Assembly: GCA_039801905.1 (NCBI GenBank)
Contig: JBDRVQ010000005.1
Coordinates: forward strand, 1-61,039
DNA: 61,039 nucleotides
DNA from: a candidate division WOR-3 bacterium
Lineage (GTDB): Bacteria; Hydrothermota; Tepidihabitantia; Tepidihabitantales; JBDRVQ01
Direction of reading: 5' to 3'
Shown here piece by piece: positions 746 through 7,943 of this stretch. The notes beneath the pieces were generated by a model, which worked only from the letters and a program-made list of their open reading frames with translations, made no database searches and had not been told where the DNA came from. The stretch's first letter is position 1. Each line of letters opens with the position of its first letter. Position numbers and translations under genes: made by a program.

Positions 746-1261
746 TTAAGGTAGGTTAATTTTCTCTCCGTATCTTAAAAATAGTCTTCCGGTAAGATAG
801 CCTAAAAGCCAACCAAAGAGGACATCCGAAGGATAATGTTCACCAGAATAGATGCGGGAAAAACCAACCAAAAAGGAGAAGGTATAAAGAGGGATTTTTA
901 GTTTCGGATACTTATTACCGTAAATTGTGGCTAAGGTCATACTCTGGGCGGAGTGGGTAGAAGGAAAAGAAGAATCCCAACGGGAAGACTCCCTTTTTGG
1001 TCTTTCCCGATTGAAAACCCCCTTTATGCCAACTGAAAGAAGGGTAGATGTTCCCCCGGCGAAAAGGGCAAGCCGACCAACACTCCGCTCTTTCTCTTTG
1101 CCAAAGGAGAAGAGAAAAAAATGGGCGGTCAAAATAGAAGAAGGGGAGGATAAAATTTCTATACTGGTATTCAAATAATCAAGCCCTGGTGATTTCCACT
1201 CGGAATGGATATAGTTAAATAGTTCATAATCAAGATTAAAAAAGAGAAAGAGTAATACCAT
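746..1261 (-). CDS. PAP2-family membrane phosphatase
   Basis: About 171 residues with several hydrophobic segments. The three PAP2 signature motifs are present: KGVFNRERP near residues 80-88, FPSTHS near 99-104 (PSGH type) and SRIYSGEHYPSD near 135-146, which holds the catalytic His and Asp. The family removes phosphate from lipid phosphates such as undecaprenyl or phosphatidyl-glycerol phosphates at the membrane; the exact substrate is not visible. I chose the ATG at 1261, which overlaps the stop of the upstream radical SAM gene as TGATG. The frame stays open to a TTG at 1327, which would add 22 residues. It is the last gene of the operon starting at 7943. Confidence 0.85.
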   Translation of the reverse strand: MVLLFLFFNLDYELFNYIHSEWKSPGLDYLNTSIEILSSPSSILTAHFFLFSFGKEKERSVGRLALFAGGTSTLLSVGIKGVFNRERPKRESSRWDSSFPSTHSAQSMTLATIYGNKYPKLKIPLYTFSFLVGFSRIYSGEHYPSDVLFGWLLGYLTGRLFLRYGEKINLP

Positions 1262-2064
1262 CAGAAGATAATTCTTATCGGCATGGGAAAATCCTTTGCT
1301 ATCCCTAAGAGCCTTTCTCTCAACCAATCGGTATAAAAATTATTACTTTGATTTACCCGCTCGTAATACCTTATCGCTTCTGGGTATTTTCCTAAACCTG
1401 ATTTTATCTTAAAGAACTTTCGGTTTAAGTAGTTTAATTTGTCAACTAAAATCTCCGCCACGCCAACTTTTTCTCCCAAAGAGAAGATTTCCCTAATTAC
1501 TTCTTCCCTGTCGGAAAAATAGGGAAGGACCGGACCGAAAAAGAGGGTTGTCTTGATTCCCGATTTCTTTAATTCCTTTAAGGCTTCTATCCTTTCTTGA
1601 ACCGCAGGGGCATTCGGCTCAAAAATTTTCCTTGTCTCTTCATCCAAAGTGGTTAAGGTCATCTCCACCCAAATTTTTGCATTACCTTTCAATAAATCAA
1701 TATCCCGGAGGCAAAGGGAAGATTTGGTCAAAATTGTTATCGGAAAGTTAGCATCCTTTAATACCTTAATTGCGTTTCGGGTCAATTGGTATCTCTCTTC
1801 AATCGGTTGGTAAGGGTCGCAGACCGTGCCGATACAGACCTCTCCCCTTTTCTTTCTCCTCACCTCTTCTTTTAACCTCTCTAATAAATTAACTTTCACC
1901 TCAATAATCTCACCCCAAGGCAAGACATCTCGCCATTTCCCAATAAAATCCGCATAGCAATAAAGACACCGATGAAAACAACCGATATAAGGGTTTAAGG
2001 AATAAGAAACATTAGAAATCCCAGATTTCGTCAAAACCTGTTTTGCTTTTATCTCCCTAAGCAT
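1261..2064 (-). CDS. SplB-like radical SAM protein
   Basis: 267 residues. C29, C33 and C36 form the radical SAM C-x3-C-x2-C motif (CFHRCLYCY), preceded by SLNPYIGC, the pattern typical of the SplB/COG1533 group that includes spore photoproduct lyase and many uncharacterised relatives. Such proteins bind a 4Fe-4S cluster and S-adenosylmethionine. The C-terminal cysteine used by true spore photoproduct lyase is not evident and the organism need not sporulate, so the substrate is unknown. The start lies 1 nt after the stop of the Fe-S glycosylase-like gene, so the two are probably translated together. Confidence 0.8.
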   Translation of the reverse strand: MLREIKAKQVLTKSGISNVSYSLNPYIGCFHRCLYCYADFIGKWRDVLPWGEIIEVKVNLLERLKEEVRRKKRGEVCIGTVCDPYQPIEERYQLTRNAIKVLKDANFPITILTKSSLCLRDIDLLKGNAKIWVEMTLTTLDEETRKIFEPNAPAVQERIEALKELKKSGIKTTLFFGPVLPYFSDREEVIREIFSLGEKVGVAEILVDKLNYLNRKFFKIKSGLGKYPEAIRYYERVNQSNNFYTDWLRERLLGIAKDFPMPIRIIF

Positions 2065-2065
2065 A

Positions 2066-3283
2066 TTAGGTTCTATAATCTGTGATTAAGTCGTTTCGGC
2101 TATTGTATCCGAGACAAAGATTTTTAATCGGACATTCGCTACATTTTGGTTCTGAATTGTTTAAGCAATAATTTGTCCCGATGAACATCAACCCATCATC
2201 TAAATCACCGATACCGTAACTGGTTCCAAATAAAAGGGTAAGGGGAATATGTTGAATTTCAATTTTTTGGGGTTTCCTTTTTCTTATTTTCAAATACTCA
2301 ACGCAAATTGATTCATAGGCAGCCATAATCTCTGGAAAAGAAGATAAATTCTTTGATTCTTTGTTCCTAATATTAGTAACCCGAATATAGTTTGTGCCAC
2401 CCTTACCTTTACTTTTTTGAATAACTCCCCATTCTTCGTATTCCGATAAATCAGCACAAACCAGTAGAAACCCAGTTCGGAATAAAATACGGCCAACATT
2501 GCTATCAAAAGGTAATTCATAAGAAAATGGTCCCCAGGAATTATCATTTCGTTTAGCTAACTTAAAGGTATGGACATACCACTTAATAAATAGATGGCAT
2601 GCCTTATCTCCAATGGCACTGCCTAAACCATACCTTTCATTATCTTTTAATTGCTGAGCAGCGATCTCAGCTGATGGATACCCTTCTAAGTATTCTACCA
2701 ATGGTTCTGAGGATTCTTTTTTCTCCTTGTGTAAATCTTTCTCTAAAAGAAGGGGAACACAGAGTGGAACACCCCAACGGTGAATGCTATAATCTAAAAC
2801 TTGCTTGGTTGATATTATACCCCTTGGGGATTGGGTGAAAAAAAGATTATATTTAGAAGGAGTAGAAACATTCTCTCTTGCCCAGTCTTCCGCACGAATT
2901 TTCTTAATTCCGGAATGTTTCGCCAAAATATTATCTATTGAAATCCCTATCTCTTTAAAAAAGTCTAATGGTCGGTGAAATATTCTTATCTCTTTTTGGT
3001 AAAGAGAATTGACCACTTCTTTAAGAAGTAAACTCACACCTTTCACATCTGGTCCTTGGTCTAAAACCGCATTTACAAGTAAGTATCGGGCTAAAAGCTC
3101 CCTCCGGGTCCAGGGACCGTCTTTTTTATCAAGATCTTTTCTAATTAAATTTCCCTCACTATCAAAATAGTGCTCAAATGGAAAAACTTCTTTCAAAGAA
3201 GGAGGAAGGGAATATCGCCACCCAATTTCCGCAATTTTTATTATCAACTCTTTACTTATTTTTACTTTGTCTTTTATATCCAT
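2066..3283 (-). CDS. HhH-GPD-like protein with EndoIII-type Fe-S cluster, paired with a DNA methyltransferase
   Basis: 405 residues. The C-terminal half carries hallmarks of the endonuclease III/MutY superfamily in order: a hairpin-like GLGSAIGDKA (219-228) with K227 where EndoIII has its catalytic lysine; PFDSNVGRI (258-266) with D260 matching the catalytic aspartate of the D-[TS]-[HN]-V-x-R motif; and C373-x7-C381-x2-C384-x5-C390, close to the C-x6-C-x2-C-x5-C cluster of EndoIII. The N-terminal ~200 residues are not recognisable, and the protein is about twice the length of EndoIII. It overlaps the methyltransferase gene by 32 bp. I infer a DNA glycosylase or AP lyase acting with the methyltransferase, as a base-excision restriction enzyme or mismatch repair partner. 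The specificity is unknown. Confidence 0.6.
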   Translation of the reverse strand: MDIKDKVKISKELIIKIAEIGWRYSLPPSLKEVFPFEHYFDSEGNLIRKDLDKKDGPWTRRELLARYLLVNAVLDQGPDVKGVSLLLKEVVNSLYQKEIRIFHRPLDFFKEIGISIDNILAKHSGIKKIRAEDWARENVSTPSKYNLFFTQSPRGIISTKQVLDYSIHRWGVPLCVPLLLEKDLHKEKKESSEPLVEYLEGYPSAEIAAQQLKDNERYGLGSAIGDKACHLFIKWYVHTFKLAKRNDNSWGPFSYELPFDSNVGRILFRTGFLLVCADLSEYEEWGVIQKSKGKGGTNYIRVTNIRNKESKNLSSFPEIMAAYESICVEYLKIRKRKPQKIEIQHIPLTLLFGTSYGIGDLDDGLMFIGTNYCLNNSEPKCSECPIKNLCLGYNSRNDLITDYRT

Positions 3284-4232
3284 ACCTTTTTTCTTTAAAT
3301 AAGGGCAACTCTTTTAATGAAGAAAGGATGTATTTCCTATCTACCTTTTTGCTTCTCTTCCTTGGCTTTACCTTAATTGACCGTGCTAATGATGATCCAT
3401 TGAGTGGAATCTTTTCAAAAACCGATATTAACTGCTCCCTTAAAAACAACGGCTCAGAGATTCTTTTTTCCGCAATCTTGACATATTCCTCTTTTATCTC
3501 GTAGCCAACCCATCTCCGCCCAAGATTATTAGCAACCTTTGTTGTCGTCCCAATCCCTAAAAAGGGGTCTAAAACTATCTCTCCTTCATAAGAGAAAAGT
3601 TTTATCAAACGATAAGGAATCTCCTCGGGAAATGGACAAGGATGGTCATATTGATTTGGTGGAACCGGAGCGATATGCCAAATATTATTCGCCAATTCTT
3701 TCGTGAATAACTCATCAATGGGAATTTTTTCTTTCTCCTTTTCTTCTTTACTCCGGAATTGATAAATTTTCGGGCCTGGTTTTTTGAATATCAAAATGTA
3801 TTCCGTCATGATATTAGGACAGTAATAACCCGGATAGGGATTTTGAATTGTCACGCCCGCTCTTTTTACTCCCCCAGTGACCTTATACCAAATAATATCT
3901 TGATGAAACTCGTAACCAATCTTTTCCATTAGGATGGTGAAATGATAAGGTAAAGGGTAGTGCTTACCTTTATACAGAATAGTCCCGATTACAACACAAC
4001 AGAACTTTCCTGGTTTTAATACTCTATAGCATTCCCGAAAACATTTTTCCAACCATTCTAAATATCTCTCGTATTCCTCCCCCCTTCTAGTTCTGAACCA
4101 TTTTCTCTTATCCGCGGTGTGAACATCATAATCTATCGCATTCCAGTAGGGCGGGGAAGTAACAATCAAATCAACTTCATTATTTTGAATTTCATCCATT
4201 TTCTCGCAGGATTTAAGAAAGATTTTATTCAT
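3252..4232 (-). CDS. Beta-class DNA methyltransferase (N4-cytosine or N6-adenine)
   Basis: 326 residues. The catalytic motif IV TSPPYW (25-30) comes before the SAM-binding motif I DPFLGIGTT (222-230), the beta-class order. The segment HPCPFPEEIPYRLIK just before motif I is typical of stand-alone and type II N4-cytosine/N6-adenine methyltransferases. The variable part between the motifs (about 110-200) should hold target recognition; TSPPY slightly favours N4-cytosine. A basic C-terminal tail (about 285-326) is extra. The ATG at 4232 is 2 nt after the ribE stop, and the 3' end overlaps the Fe-S glycosylase-like gene by 32 bp. No conventional restriction endonuclease gene is nearby. Confidence 0.88.
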   Translation of the reverse strand: MNKIFLKSCEKMDEIQNNEVDLIVTSPPYWNAIDYDVHTADKRKWFRTRRGEEYERYLEWLEKCFRECYRVLKPGKFCCVVIGTILYKGKHYPLPYHFTILMEKIGYEFHQDIIWYKVTGGVKRAGVTIQNPYPGYYCPNIMTEYILIFKKPGPKIYQFRSKEEKEKEKIPIDELFTKELANNIWHIAPVPPNQYDHPCPFPEEIPYRLIKLFSYEGEIVLDPFLGIGTTTKVANNLGRRWVGYEIKEEYVKIAEKRISEPLFLREQLISVFEKIPLNGSSLARSIKVKPRKRSKKVDRKYILSSLKELPLFKEKRYGYKRQSKNK

Positions 4233-4234
4233 CT

Positions 4235-4801
4235 TTATCTTTTCGCGTATTTGCCCAATATATCATACTCAATATTCACTTCGCTTCCCACCCGCTTATA
4301 TTTTAGAGTCGTGTTCTCATAAGTATGAGGAATAATCACCACCTGAAATATATTACCTTTTATTCCATAAACTGTCAGGCTTATCCCCGAGACGGCAACT
4401 GAACCCTTCTCCACCAAAAATTGGTTATTTTTAACCCTTATCTCAAAAATAAAATTCCTTCCCTCTCTTAGAATCTTAACTATCTTTCCTATTTCATCAA
4501 TATGCCCCTGAACGAAATGACCACCCAAACGGCTACCCGCCATAATTGCCCTCTCTAAGTTAATAAAATCCCCTCTTTTTAAATCTTTCAAGGTCGTCTG
4601 ATTTAAGGTCTCCTTTGTCGCCTCCACTTGAAAGTTATTGTCTTTATTCCCAATAACCGTCAAACAACAACCCTCAACCGCAACCGAATCACCAATTTTT
4701 AACTCCGGGGCGAAGGAACTTTGGATGGTAAAAATTTTATTACCACTCTTAAATGAAATCTCTAAAACCCGACCAACTTCTTCAATAATACCGGTGAACA
4801 T
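4235..4801 (-). CDS. ribE: Riboflavin synthase alpha chain
   Basis: 188 residues in two lumazine-binding half-domains. The first begins MFTGIIEEVG, the near-invariant start of the family, and the second begins near residue 95 with GHFVQGHIDEIG. The enzyme converts two 6,7-dimethyl-8-ribityllumazine molecules to riboflavin and a pyrimidinedione in the cytosol. The frame is open to 4828, but the family start fixes the ATG at 4801. It overlaps ribD by about 20 bp. ribH and ribA/B are not in the window. Confidence 0.95.
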   Translation of the reverse strand: MFTGIIEEVGRVLEISFKSGNKIFTIQSSFAPELKIGDSVAVEGCCLTVIGNKDNNFQVEATKETLNQTTLKDLKRGDFINLERAIMAGSRLGGHFVQGHIDEIGKIVKILREGRNFIFEIRVKNNQFLVEKGSVAVSGISLTVYGIKGNIFQVVIIPHTYENTTLKYKRVGSEVNIEYDILGKYAKR

Positions 4802-5870
4802 AACCTGTGAAAAGAAAATCCTTACCAATCATTTTAACCTTTGTCTCTTTTAAGTCAATCGCCTCTTTTAGGCTACCCAAAGAGAGTTTTTCAGTAAAGG
4901 ATAGACCTTCTCCTAAAATTTTAGGAGCAAAGAAGAGAAAAATCCGGTCCACAATATCCTCTTTTAAAGCCGAAGAGAAAACTCTTGCCCCACCTTCAAT
5001 TAAAATTTTCGCACAGCCCAACTGATAAAGTCCATTTAAAATCTCATCCCAAGAAAGTAATCCCTTATCCTCTTTGACCGAGATTACCTTTACCCCCTTT
5101 TTTTCTAACTCTTCCCTCTTTTTATTTTGGAACTGCCCACCGGTAAAAATTATCACTTCCCCTCTTTCTTTTAATAATCGCGCATTTAGGGGAATTCTTA
5201 ATCTCCGGTCTAAAATCACCCTTTTTATCGCCTTTTTTATTCGGCGACAGGTGAGCCTTGGGTTATCTTTAATTACAGTATTTATACCCACTAAGATCGC
5301 ATCCTGTTCGCAACGCAAAAGGTTAGAAAAGTCCCTTGTTCTTTCTCCGGTAATCCATTTTGACTCCCCTCCTTTTGTTGCCATCTTACCATCCAGGGTG
5401 AGTGCTGCCTTTAATGTCACATAGGGTTTCTTTTCCTTCGTATACTTTATATACCACTCGTTTAACTCCTTTGCCTCTTTTTCTTTCACACCCCTTTTCA
5501 CCCTTATCCCAGCATTTTCCAAAACTTCCTTCCCTTTCACTAAGGGATTTGGGTCATCCATCGCATAGACCACCTCTTTTATCCCTTCCCTAATGATTCT
5601 TTCGGTGCAGGGTGGTGTCTTGCCGTAATGGGAGCACGGCTCTAATAAAGAATAAAGGGTTGCACCTTTCAATAATCTTTTATCCTTGACACTCTCAATC
5701 GCCAAAATCTCAGCGTGGGGACCACCAAACTTTTTATGATAGCCTTTTCCAATAATTTTACCGCCTTTCACCAAAACCGCGCCGCAGAGGGGATTGGGCG
5801 AAGTGAAAAAACGGCCTCTCTTTGCCAATTTTAAGGTGAGGGCGATATAATTTTCCTCAGGAGAAATCAC
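4782..5870 (-). CDS. ribD: Bifunctional riboflavin deaminase/reductase
   Basis: 362 residues. The N-terminal deaminase domain (about 1-145) has the zinc ligands in GPHAEILAIE and EPCSHYGKTPPCTERI. The C-terminal RibD reductase domain (about 146-362) starts near VTLKAALTLDGKMA. It deaminates and then reduces the pyrimidine intermediate of riboflavin synthesis. The usual PNPxVGAV motif reads PNPLCGAV, with Cys in place of Val. The start is GTG at 5870, 9 nt after the stop of the EF-G-like gene, without a strong ribosome binding site. Confidence 0.95.
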   Translation of the reverse strand: MISPEENYIALTLKLAKRGRFFTSPNPLCGAVLVKGGKIIGKGYHKKFGGPHAEILAIESVKDKRLLKGATLYSLLEPCSHYGKTPPCTERIIREGIKEVVYAMDDPNPLVKGKEVLENAGIRVKRGVKEKEAKELNEWYIKYTKEKKPYVTLKAALTLDGKMATKGGESKWITGERTRDFSNLLRCEQDAILVGINTVIKDNPRLTCRRIKKAIKRVILDRRLRIPLNARLLKERGEVIIFTGGQFQNKKREELEKKGVKVISVKEDKGLLSWDEILNGLYQLGCAKILIEGGARVFSSALKEDIVDRIFLFFAPKILGEGLSFTEKLSLGSLKEAIDLKETKVKMIGKDFLFTGYVHRYY

Positions 5871-5879
5871 CGATTTATT

Positions 5880-7943
5880 TCACTCTTTTTCTTTCTCTTT
5901 CTCCCTTTTTGCCTCTTCAATTATTTTGGCACTGAGTTCTTTTGGCACCTCTTCATAAAAGGCAAATTTCATTGTAAAATACCCCCTGCCTTGGGTAATG
6001 GAACGAAGGGTGGTTGAATATTTATACAACTCAGCCAGGGGGCAATGGGCTTTTACTACCTGCAAATTCCCTTGCCTTTCAATCCCTAAAATCCTACCCC
6101 GCCGGGCATTCAAGTCTCCCATCACCTCACCCAAAAATTGGTCTGGACAACTGACCTCTAATTCCATTATTGGCTCCAAAAGAATTACTCCCGCTTTTTC
6201 ACAGGCATTTCGGAAAGACATAATCGCCGCAATCTTAAAGGCAATGTCTGAAGAGTCCACCGGATGAAAACTACCATCATAAACCGTCACCTTCAAATCG
6301 GTAATCGGATAGTTGGCTAAAAATCCTTGCTCCATCGCCTCTCTCACTCCTTTTTCGATAGATGGGATATACTTGGCGGGAATTGCGCCACCAAAAATCT
6401 CATCTGCAAATTCAAACCCTTTTCCCCGAGGAAGTGGCTCAATCCTTAACCAGACATCGCCATATTGCCCCCGCCCACCAGTCTGTTTCTTATATTTCCC
6501 TTGCGCCTCTGCCTTCTTCGTAATCGTCTCCCGATAAGGAATCTTTGGCTTCTGAATATCAACCGCCACATCAAACTTCCGCTTCAGCCTTCCCAAAATC
6601 ACATCCAGATGCAACTCACCAAGTCCAGAAATAATCTGTTGTTTTAATTCCGTTGCGTAATAGAAAGTAAAAGTTGGGTCTTCGTTATGCAACCGATGGA
6701 GACCATTAGAAACCTTTTCTTCGTCACCCCGGGTCTTGGGCACAATGGCAATAGAGATGGAAGGCTCAGGAAATTTTATCGGTGGCAATTTAATATTAAG
6801 TTCCGGAGTGGTAAGGGTATCTGAGGTCTTTGTCTCCTTTAACTTCACCAGTGCACCAATCTCACCAGTTCTTAATACTCCAACCTCTTCCCTCTCTTTC
6901 CCTTTTATGTAGTAAATCTGATTTATCTTCTCCTGCCGCCCGGTGCTCATATTTAAGAGGTTATCACCCGAACTTACTTTCCCTTGGAGGACCTTACAAT
7001 AATGTAAATCGCCGATGTGAAGTTCCGATACTGTCTTAAAGACAAAAAGGAGGGGTGGACCATTAGGATTGACCGGAATAGTCTTATCCTCTAATCTTAT
7101 ACCGCAATCTAATGGGGAAGGTAGATATTGACAAGCAAAGTCAAGAATTAAATCTACCCCAATGCCCTCGTTGGCGTCACCCGCTAAAATAGGGAAAAGT
7201 TCCCGCTTCTTTATACCTTCCTTTAATCCGGAGATAATCTCCTCTTTTGTAATCTCGCTCCCTTCTAAATATTTATTTAATATCTCTTCTGAGACATCAC
7301 CCAAACCTTCAATAATCTTCTCCCGATATTTGCTCACCTCTCCCTTCTTTTCTTCGGGCAAGGGCTCTTCTCTTCTCTTCCCATTTTCATAAAGATAAAC
7401 CTTCTCTCCCATAATATCCACTAAACCCTTAAAATCCATCTCTTTCCCTATCGGTAAAAATAGGGGAACTGCCTTCCCGGGAAATGTCTTATTCAATTCC
7501 TCTAAAACCTTAAAGAAATCGCTATGCTCTTTCTTTAATTTATTAATAAAGAAAAACATTGGCTTATTTTCCTCAGAAAGATGGCGCATCACAATTTCTG
7601 TTCCCACTTCAATCCCACCGGTGCCATCAATTATCACACAACCACAATCACAAGCCCTAATTCCAGAGAGGACATCGCCTAAAAAATCGGCATAACCCGG
7701 GGTGTCAATCAGATTAAATAAAAAGCCATTGTATTCTCCATAACCCAGAGCCAGGTTAATACTCACCTTCCGGTTAATCTCATCCTCATCGTAATCAAAA
7801 AAAGAGGTACCATCGTCAACCTTCCCTCTTCGGGGATTGGTTCCCAAAAGAAAAATTAAAGTATCAGCAACCGATGTCTTCCCGGAGGAGGAATGACCGA
7901 AAAAACCAATATTTCTAATTTTATCCGCACTGTATTCTTTCAT
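5880..7943 (-). CDS. EF-G-like translational GTPase (second EF-G type)
   Basis: 687 residues with EF-G architecture: GTP-binding domain (G1 GHSSSGKT at 16-23, G3 DTPGYADF, G4 NKLKKE), then domains II to V including the domain IV GGRGQYGDVW region and GEVMGDLNARRGRI in domain V. The P-loop GHSSSGKT differs from GHIDAGKT of housekeeping EF-G and matches the EF-G-like/EF-G2 subgroup, whose role in translation is poorly defined. The ATG at 7943 sits 7 nt after a -10 box, so the mRNA should be leaderless. It is the first gene of the operon that continues into ribD-ribE. Confidence 0.85.
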   Translation of the reverse strand: MKEYSADKIRNIGFFGHSSSGKTSVADTLIFLLGTNPRRGKVDDGTSFFDYDEDEINRKVSINLALGYGEYNGFLFNLIDTPGYADFLGDVLSGIRACDCGCVIIDGTGGIEVGTEIVMRHLSEENKPMFFFINKLKKEHSDFFKVLEELNKTFPGKAVPLFLPIGKEMDFKGLVDIMGEKVYLYENGKRREEPLPEEKKGEVSKYREKIIEGLGDVSEEILNKYLEGSEITKEEIISGLKEGIKKRELFPILAGDANEGIGVDLILDFACQYLPSPLDCGIRLEDKTIPVNPNGPPLLFVFKTVSELHIGDLHYCKVLQGKVSSGDNLLNMSTGRQEKINQIYYIKGKEREEVGVLRTGEIGALVKLKETKTSDTLTTPELNIKLPPIKFPEPSISIAIVPKTRGDEEKVSNGLHRLHNEDPTFTFYYATELKQQIISGLGELHLDVILGRLKRKFDVAVDIQKPKIPYRETITKKAEAQGKYKKQTGGRGQYGDVWLRIEPLPRGKGFEFADEIFGGAIPAKYIPSIEKGVREAMEQGFLANYPITDLKVTVYDGSFHPVDSSDIAFKIAAIMSFRNACEKAGVILLEPIMELEVSCPDQFLGEVMGDLNARRGRILGIERQGNLQVVKAHCPLAELYKYSTTLRSITQGRGYFTMKFAFYEEVPKELSAKIIEEAKREKEKEKE

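Follow-up and report, generated by a model that had tools for sequence, protein, structure and literature searches.

What does a protein resembling a DNA repair glycosylase do when its gene overlaps that of a DNA methyltransferase? This question is raised by two genes in the window (the whole stretch of DNA that was analyzed, 61,039 nucleotides), which are referred to here as M, for the methyltransferase, and R, for the glycosylase-like protein. As argued below, the pair is likely to be a Type II restriction-modification system directed at AGCT, in which an HhH-GPD Fe-S glycosylase/AP lyase serves as the restriction enzyme.

M (326 aa; 3252..4232, minus strand) is an N6/N4 amino-methyltransferase. 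It matches PF01555 (N6_N4_Mtase, E=3.4e-49) and the PADLOC model MTase_II (4.5e-74), and its closest solved relative is 2zie (5e-38). Motif IV (SPPY, residues 26–29; 4146..4157, minus strand) precedes motif I (DPFLGIGTT, residues 222–230; 3543..3569, minus strand), which places the enzyme in the beta class. R (405 aa; 2066..3283, minus strand) lies downstream, and its 5' end overlaps the 3' end of M by 32 bp (3252..3283, minus strand). The two genes also overlap, or stand within ~20 bp of each other, in the other co-directional loci with M first that were measured. The pair is flanked by host genes for a radical-SAM protein (1261..2064) and riboflavin synthase (ribE, 4235..4828; Lum_binding, 8e-47), with PAP2 and RibD also among the neighbors; Pfam annotation of these neighbors revealed no adjoining ordinary nuclease. 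A separate, ordinary HhH-GPD protein is encoded on another contig of the host genome.

R is the founding member of an unnamed family. Searches of Pfam, NCBIfam, PADLOC and PHROGs provided no name for it, with no family above any curated cut-off, and PF00730 (HhH-GPD) did not match R in either whole-genome or protein searches. Its assignment as a putative HhH-GPD Fe-S restriction glycosylase is based on its homologues, an AlphaFold (AF2) model, Foldseek comparisons and a profile match. The model built with 33 sequences is of high confidence (pLDDT 95, pTM 0.92), whereas only 4 sequences gave an unusable one (pLDDT 37.7). The four best PDB matches of the model in Foldseek are endonuclease III (EndoIII, three entries) and MUTYH. 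Their E-values are weak (0.13–0.6), which is probably due to the large insertions in R; the probabilities are 0.72–0.95 over the four matches (EndoIII entries 0.92–0.95, TM by target 0.50–0.60). At the profile level, hhalign matched the Fe-S region of R to a MutY/EndoIII-type set (94%, E=1.2e-7), and TIGR01084 (mutY) gave weak matches in 30 of the 33 members. PF10576 matched the Fe-S loop weakly (E=0.013), with the MutY C-terminus also hinted. When R was compared with EndoIII proteins of its own phylum, only the Fe-S loop was aligned, leaving out the helix-hairpin-helix (HhH) and Asp regions. The equivalence of these two regions therefore rests on motif order and the model, only the Fe-S region being significant by profile.

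Three motifs, VLDQGPD, GxGxAxGxK227 and ExPxD260SNxGR, are invariant across the 33 aligned members. The first (residues 73–79, with Q76; 3047..3067, minus strand) is located on a helix that, by inspection, appears to occupy the place of a Gln-bearing helix in EndoIII. The second belongs to the HhH loop (YGLGSAIGDKA region, residues 218–228; 2600..2632, minus strand), which lies between helices 205–214 and 226–239 of the model and in which G219, G221, A223, G225 and K227 are all invariant. K227 (2603..2605, minus strand) is the predicted Schiff-base (AP lyase) lysine, which we take to be the motif-equivalent of EndoIII Lys120. D260 (PFDSNxGR; 2504..2506, minus strand), the predicted catalytic Asp, is likewise taken to be the motif-equivalent of EndoIII Asp138. 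The hairpin glycines, the lysine and the [VF]D[ST][HN]xxR Asp motif occur in R in the order typical of the superfamily. With both the Lys and the Asp invariant, R is predicted, by the logic known from EndoIII, to be a bifunctional glycosylase/AP lyase. The Fe-S loop, C373-x7-C381-x2-C384-x5-C390 (2114..2167, minus strand), has nearly invariant cysteines and is one residue longer than the canonical C-x6-C in its first spacing. The excised base is undetermined, as the Fe-S region resembles that of MutY (adenine) and K227 resembles the lysine of EndoIII (pyrimidines). It is inferred that R probably recognizes its sequence through the insertions that EndoIII lacks. Searches of the family with Pfam, NCBIfam and PADLOC revealed no consistently occurring nuclease domain.

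To date, the R family comprises 40 loci from many bacterial and archaeal phyla: 36 found by scanning 84,980 species genomes, the window, and those in genomes G111, G098 and G234. Bacterial hosts include Chloroflexota, Acidobacteriota, Omnitrophota, Nitrospirota, Bacteroidota, Fibrobacterota and Pseudomonadota, and archaeal hosts include Thermoplasmatota, Nitrososphaerota, DPANN, a Helarchaeote and a haloarchaeon. Within the phylum of the window genome, to which the WOR-3 MAG G130 also belongs, true homologues were found in 4 of 147 genomes. A fifth match in this set (G024, E 2.6e-4) was treated as spurious; the ORF list contains a MerR-like gene there. No relatives were found in the plasmids, phages and viral contigs searched.

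An N6/N4 methyltransferase adjoins R in every assessable locus (39/39), the sole omission being L046, whose sequence ends inside R. M is normally upstream of R, overlapping it or nearly so; in L019 and L044 it follows R, and the genes are divergent in L041. R is interrupted or truncated, with M present, in six loci (L021, L029, L041, L042, L044 and L045), although some of these interruptions may be assembly errors. The converse, an intact R beside a decayed M, was not seen among the loci examined.

The original prediction, made from the sequence alone, withstands these comparisons in most respects. The gene coordinates, protein lengths and 32-bp overlap that it gave are exact, and its calls of an N4C/N6A methyltransferase and of no adjacent ordinary restriction nuclease were borne out. 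K227 (in GLGSAIGDKA), D260 (in PFDSNVGR) and the four-Cys cluster are conserved in the family except in truncated members. Its description of the N-terminal half of R as unrecognised needs correction, since the model is one confident fold with no separate unknown domain. It would have been refuted by a predicted structure without an HhH-GPD fold, or by homologues regularly lacking a methyltransferase. Neither was observed: the best solved matches are EndoIII and MUTYH, albeit with weak E-values, and R is essentially never found without a methyltransferase.

The methyltransferase itself is exchangeable. At least four types of M can be distinguished by best match, represented by the motifs SPPYWNA (type A, including the window M), DPPFAID (B), DPPFGI (C) and DPPYGI (D), with two loci unassigned; examples of every type belong to PF01555. 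Isolates whose pair includes a type A enzyme are Thermanaerothrix daxensis GNS-1 and Thioalkalivibrio sp. HK1. The window M is only 21–27% identical to type B and C examples, whereas the R proteins beside them are 56–58% identical to the window R (43–66% across the family). The type changes at least eight times on the R tree. The window R, with its type A partner, is closer to type-B-linked R proteins (65–66%) than to type A-linked ones from Chloroflexi (47–54%). By a rule of thumb based on motif IV, type A enzymes are inferred to be probable N4-cytosine methyltransferases and types B–D probable N6-adenine methyltransferases. AGCT contains both C and A, so enzymes of either kind can protect the same site. 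An exchange of partners with different chemistry makes sense if all of them guard one short site.

The pair moves as a unit, and R decays while M persists, in the loci examined. The radical-SAM and riboflavin synthase genes are directly adjacent in 12 relatives from the same order, with gaps of up to ~165 bp; thus, the M-R pair has been inserted cleanly in the window, with 1 and 2 bp separating it from the flanking genes. In the WOR-3 MAG G130 (locus L007), the pair is enclosed by 266-bp direct repeats with 97% identity (719–984 and 3118–3383), which represent a long target duplication of the 3' end of an acyl-CoA dehydrogenase gene. Direct repeats of 144 bp (93%; 4700–4843 and 7279–7422) also enclose the pair in Thermanaerothrix daxensis (L037). 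Long target duplications of this sort are a known mark left by restriction-modification genes when they insert.

AGCT is likely to be the recognition site of the pair, on the correlational evidence that genomes carrying R (R+) avoid it. The tetramer was first suggested by a palindrome scan of four R+ genomes, and hence the hypothesis was raised from part of the R+ set. In locus flanks, the observed/expected ratio of AGCT is 0.42 for R+ genomes, compared to 0.81 and 0.87 in two sets without R (R-). In new segments away from the locus, the ratio is 0.37 for R+ genomes, and 0.90 and 0.89 for R- genomes of Chloroflexota and of the window's own phylum, respectively. AGCT ranks first of 136 tetranucleotides in depletion of R+ versus R- genomes (one-sided Mann-Whitney p=1.4e-5), and among 512 pentamers, the first four places are taken by exactly the four with AGCT inside. 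The avoidance accompanies all types of M (A 0.28, B 0.34, C 0.48, and D, from Fibrobacterales and Treponema, 0.15). Every NAGCTN context is depleted in G159 (0.00–0.12) and G147 (0.05–0.20), while AAGCT shows the strongest depletion in other genomes; a preference for certain flanking bases is possible. AGCT is not depleted in a Halorubrum genome with a truncated R (0.85), and only weakly at L042, where R is broken (0.79).

There are exceptions in both directions. Two genomes do not avoid AGCT despite a seemingly intact R, one from Sumerlaeota (G151/L028, 1.17) and one from Helarchaeota (G149/L031, 0.96). Recent arrival, a different site or an inactive pair are all possible explanations; no diverged R residues that would clearly account for it were found. 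Conversely, AGCT is also avoided in R- genomes from the same order as the window (G110, G100 and G101), which makes the avoidance in G111 uninformative. G110 is without a strong N6_N4 methylase, and another or a lost AGCT-directed system is possible there. The window (1–61039) is also depleted in TCGA (0.11), CTAG (0.17), GGCC (0.25) and GATC (0.32). Its host may thus have, or have had, further restriction systems, although CTAG depletion is general.

Other causes of the avoidance were considered. R+ genomes show no enrichment of the sequences that deamination of AGCT would produce, and deamination was rejected as the reason for the loss of AGCT. To test for an AluI-like 5mC system, C5 methylases were sought in R+ genomes, and 11 of 17 gave no match. 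For G098 and G152, the neighbor of R is the sole PF01555 methylase and neither PF00145 nor PF02086 is found above the cut-off, yet AGCT is still avoided. Systems of these three classes other than the pair, the only classes searched, therefore cannot explain the avoidance in these two genomes.

It is very likely that the pair is a restriction-modification system. Restriction is favored over repair because methyltransferases are swapped, the pair inserts as a unit, R but not M decays, and hosts avoid AGCT. If R restricts DNA, base excision is its likely mode, which is inferred from family and residues without biochemistry. The proposed system would be a compact, mobile Type II pair with the site AGCT, in which methylation by M would protect host DNA. 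R, a [4Fe-4S]-type HhH-GPD glycosylase enlarged by insertions that could provide sequence recognition, would act on unmethylated AGCT by flipping a base out and excising it with D260 and K227, and would then cut the abasic strand by beta-elimination. Incoming DNA lacking the methylation would be damaged. The methylated base, the excised base, AP lyase activity, methylation-sensitive attack on AGCT-containing DNA and use against phages are all inferred.

The alternative that survives best, though unlikely, is that R recognizes DNA through its HhH/Fe-S scaffold and cuts as an unrecognised phosphodiesterase. All restriction-type evidence fits this equally well, and the chemistry of R is only inferred. 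However, the glycosylase/lyase residues K227 and D260 are invariant, and Pfam, NCBIfam and PADLOC show no consistent nuclease domain in the family.

A second unlikely explanation is that R is a repair partner similar to Mig.MthI, removing deamination products of bases methylated by M and so preventing mutations at AGCT. R does look like a repair-type HhH-GPD protein with a MutY-like Fe-S region, and Mig.MthI, encoded beside a methyltransferase, is a precedent. However, the partners of R are amino-methyltransferases rather than 5mC enzymes. Repair does not predict AGCT avoidance, and the footprint of failed repair, an enrichment of AACT/AGTT or GGCT/AGCC, is absent. A repair accessory would also require a second, ordinary restriction nuclease, and the loci read showed none recognizable next to the pair. 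R and M are also more tightly linked, and more mobile, than would be expected if R were an accessory.

It is also unlikely that the AGCT avoidance is coincidental, arising from shared habitat or other systems, with the pair recognizing something else. The avoidance by the R- relatives G110, G100 and G101, and its absence from two R+ genomes, are consistent with this explanation. Nevertheless, the effect spans many phyla, is the first-ranked among 136 tetramers, separates R+ from R- genomes within Chloroflexota, and persists in genomes whose sole PF01555 methylase is the M next to R, with PF00145 and PF02086 below the cut-off. Finally, action of R on DNA marked by M (demethylation or modification-dependent restriction, as in ROS1 or Brig proteins) or on phage-modified bases is very unlikely: such Fe-S HhH-GPD glycosylases are known, ROS1 is among the weak sequence matches, and the UDG-fold defence glycosylases Brig1 and Brig3 target modified bases (PMC11078745, PMC13160076), but R would then attack its host's own methylated DNA, and it would be left unexplained why R is linked to swappable methyltransferases and why hosts avoid AGCT.

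As a proposed restriction glycosylase, R is best compared with the R.PabI (HALFPIPE) superfamily (R.PabI, R.CcoLI, R.HpyAXII; site GTAC), which shares the proposed mode, the sequence-specific removal of an unmethylated base combined with AP lyase activity. That superfamily also has a DNA methyltransferase partner, a 4-bp palindrome and a patchy, mobile distribution (PMC10273834, PMC4357717, PMC4615327). However, it adopts a half-pipe fold and recognizes GTAC, whereas R is larger (~400 aa), is a predicted HhH-GPD protein with an Fe-S loop, has the predicted site AGCT and has repeatedly changed partner. No PabI-type structure appeared among the Foldseek matches shown or the sequence matches of R. 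Model and sequence predict that the system works like R.PabI without being a member of that family. The original prediction had drawn the same parallel, noting the different fold, and it holds; its view that restriction by base excision is attractive is supported as to restriction, while base excision and AP lyase remain inferred.

R resembles EndoIII and MutY in its HhH loop, predicted catalytic Asp and C-terminal Fe-S loop and, though only with weak E-values, in its overall model, with a lysine as in EndoIII and an Fe-S region closest to MutY. It differs in being about twice their size, with insertions between core helices, an x7 Cys spacing, an obligate methyltransferase neighbor and a patchy distribution. 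Mig.MthI is similarly an HhH-GPD glycosylase whose gene adjoins a DNA methyltransferase gene; its known substrate is T:G, and the 5mC system that it accompanies includes a nuclease. The present pair, in contrast, has PF01555 amino-methyltransferases and no recognised adjacent nuclease. Brig1 and Brig3 are, like the proposed R, glycosylases used for defence, but they belong to the UDG superfamily and act on modified phage bases, with no methyltransferase mentioned (PMC11078745, PMC13160076).

A 2023 review describes no restriction glycosylases other than R.PabI and its relatives, and according to it all known restriction enzymes outside that superfamily are phosphodiesterases (PMC10273834). Nothing in the open-access literature searched joins 'HhH-GPD' with 'restriction-modification', and no published restriction enzyme with an EndoIII/MutY fold was found there; REBASE and subscription papers were outside the search, and a prior computational listing is possible. 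We lean slightly towards a bolder reading, namely that restriction glycosylases evolved independently a second time, as a superfamily derived from HhH-GPD/Fe-S repair enzymes that is specific for AGCT, is distributed across bacteria and archaea, and has partners that switch between N4-cytosine and N6-adenine methyltransferases protecting AGCT. If this is true, base-excision immunity arose more than once, ordinary repair enzymes can turn into weapons that distinguish self from non-self, and many uncultured thermophiles and archaea harbor an additional restriction family that works without a metal-dependent nuclease. The predicted AGCT site, K227/D260 and the partner swapping make the reading directly testable.

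Further methyltransferase-like genes are present near R in some loci. In Halorubrum yunnanense, M and R are divergent (L077:4299-6525) and a second methyltransferase-like gene is located at 2952–4208; R breaks off near the contig end, with a C-terminal piece on another contig (G150:C35), and the gene is probably interrupted. At L038, a second PF01555 methyltransferase, with an N-terminal MerR/HTH_17 domain, lies downstream of R (1572–2648).
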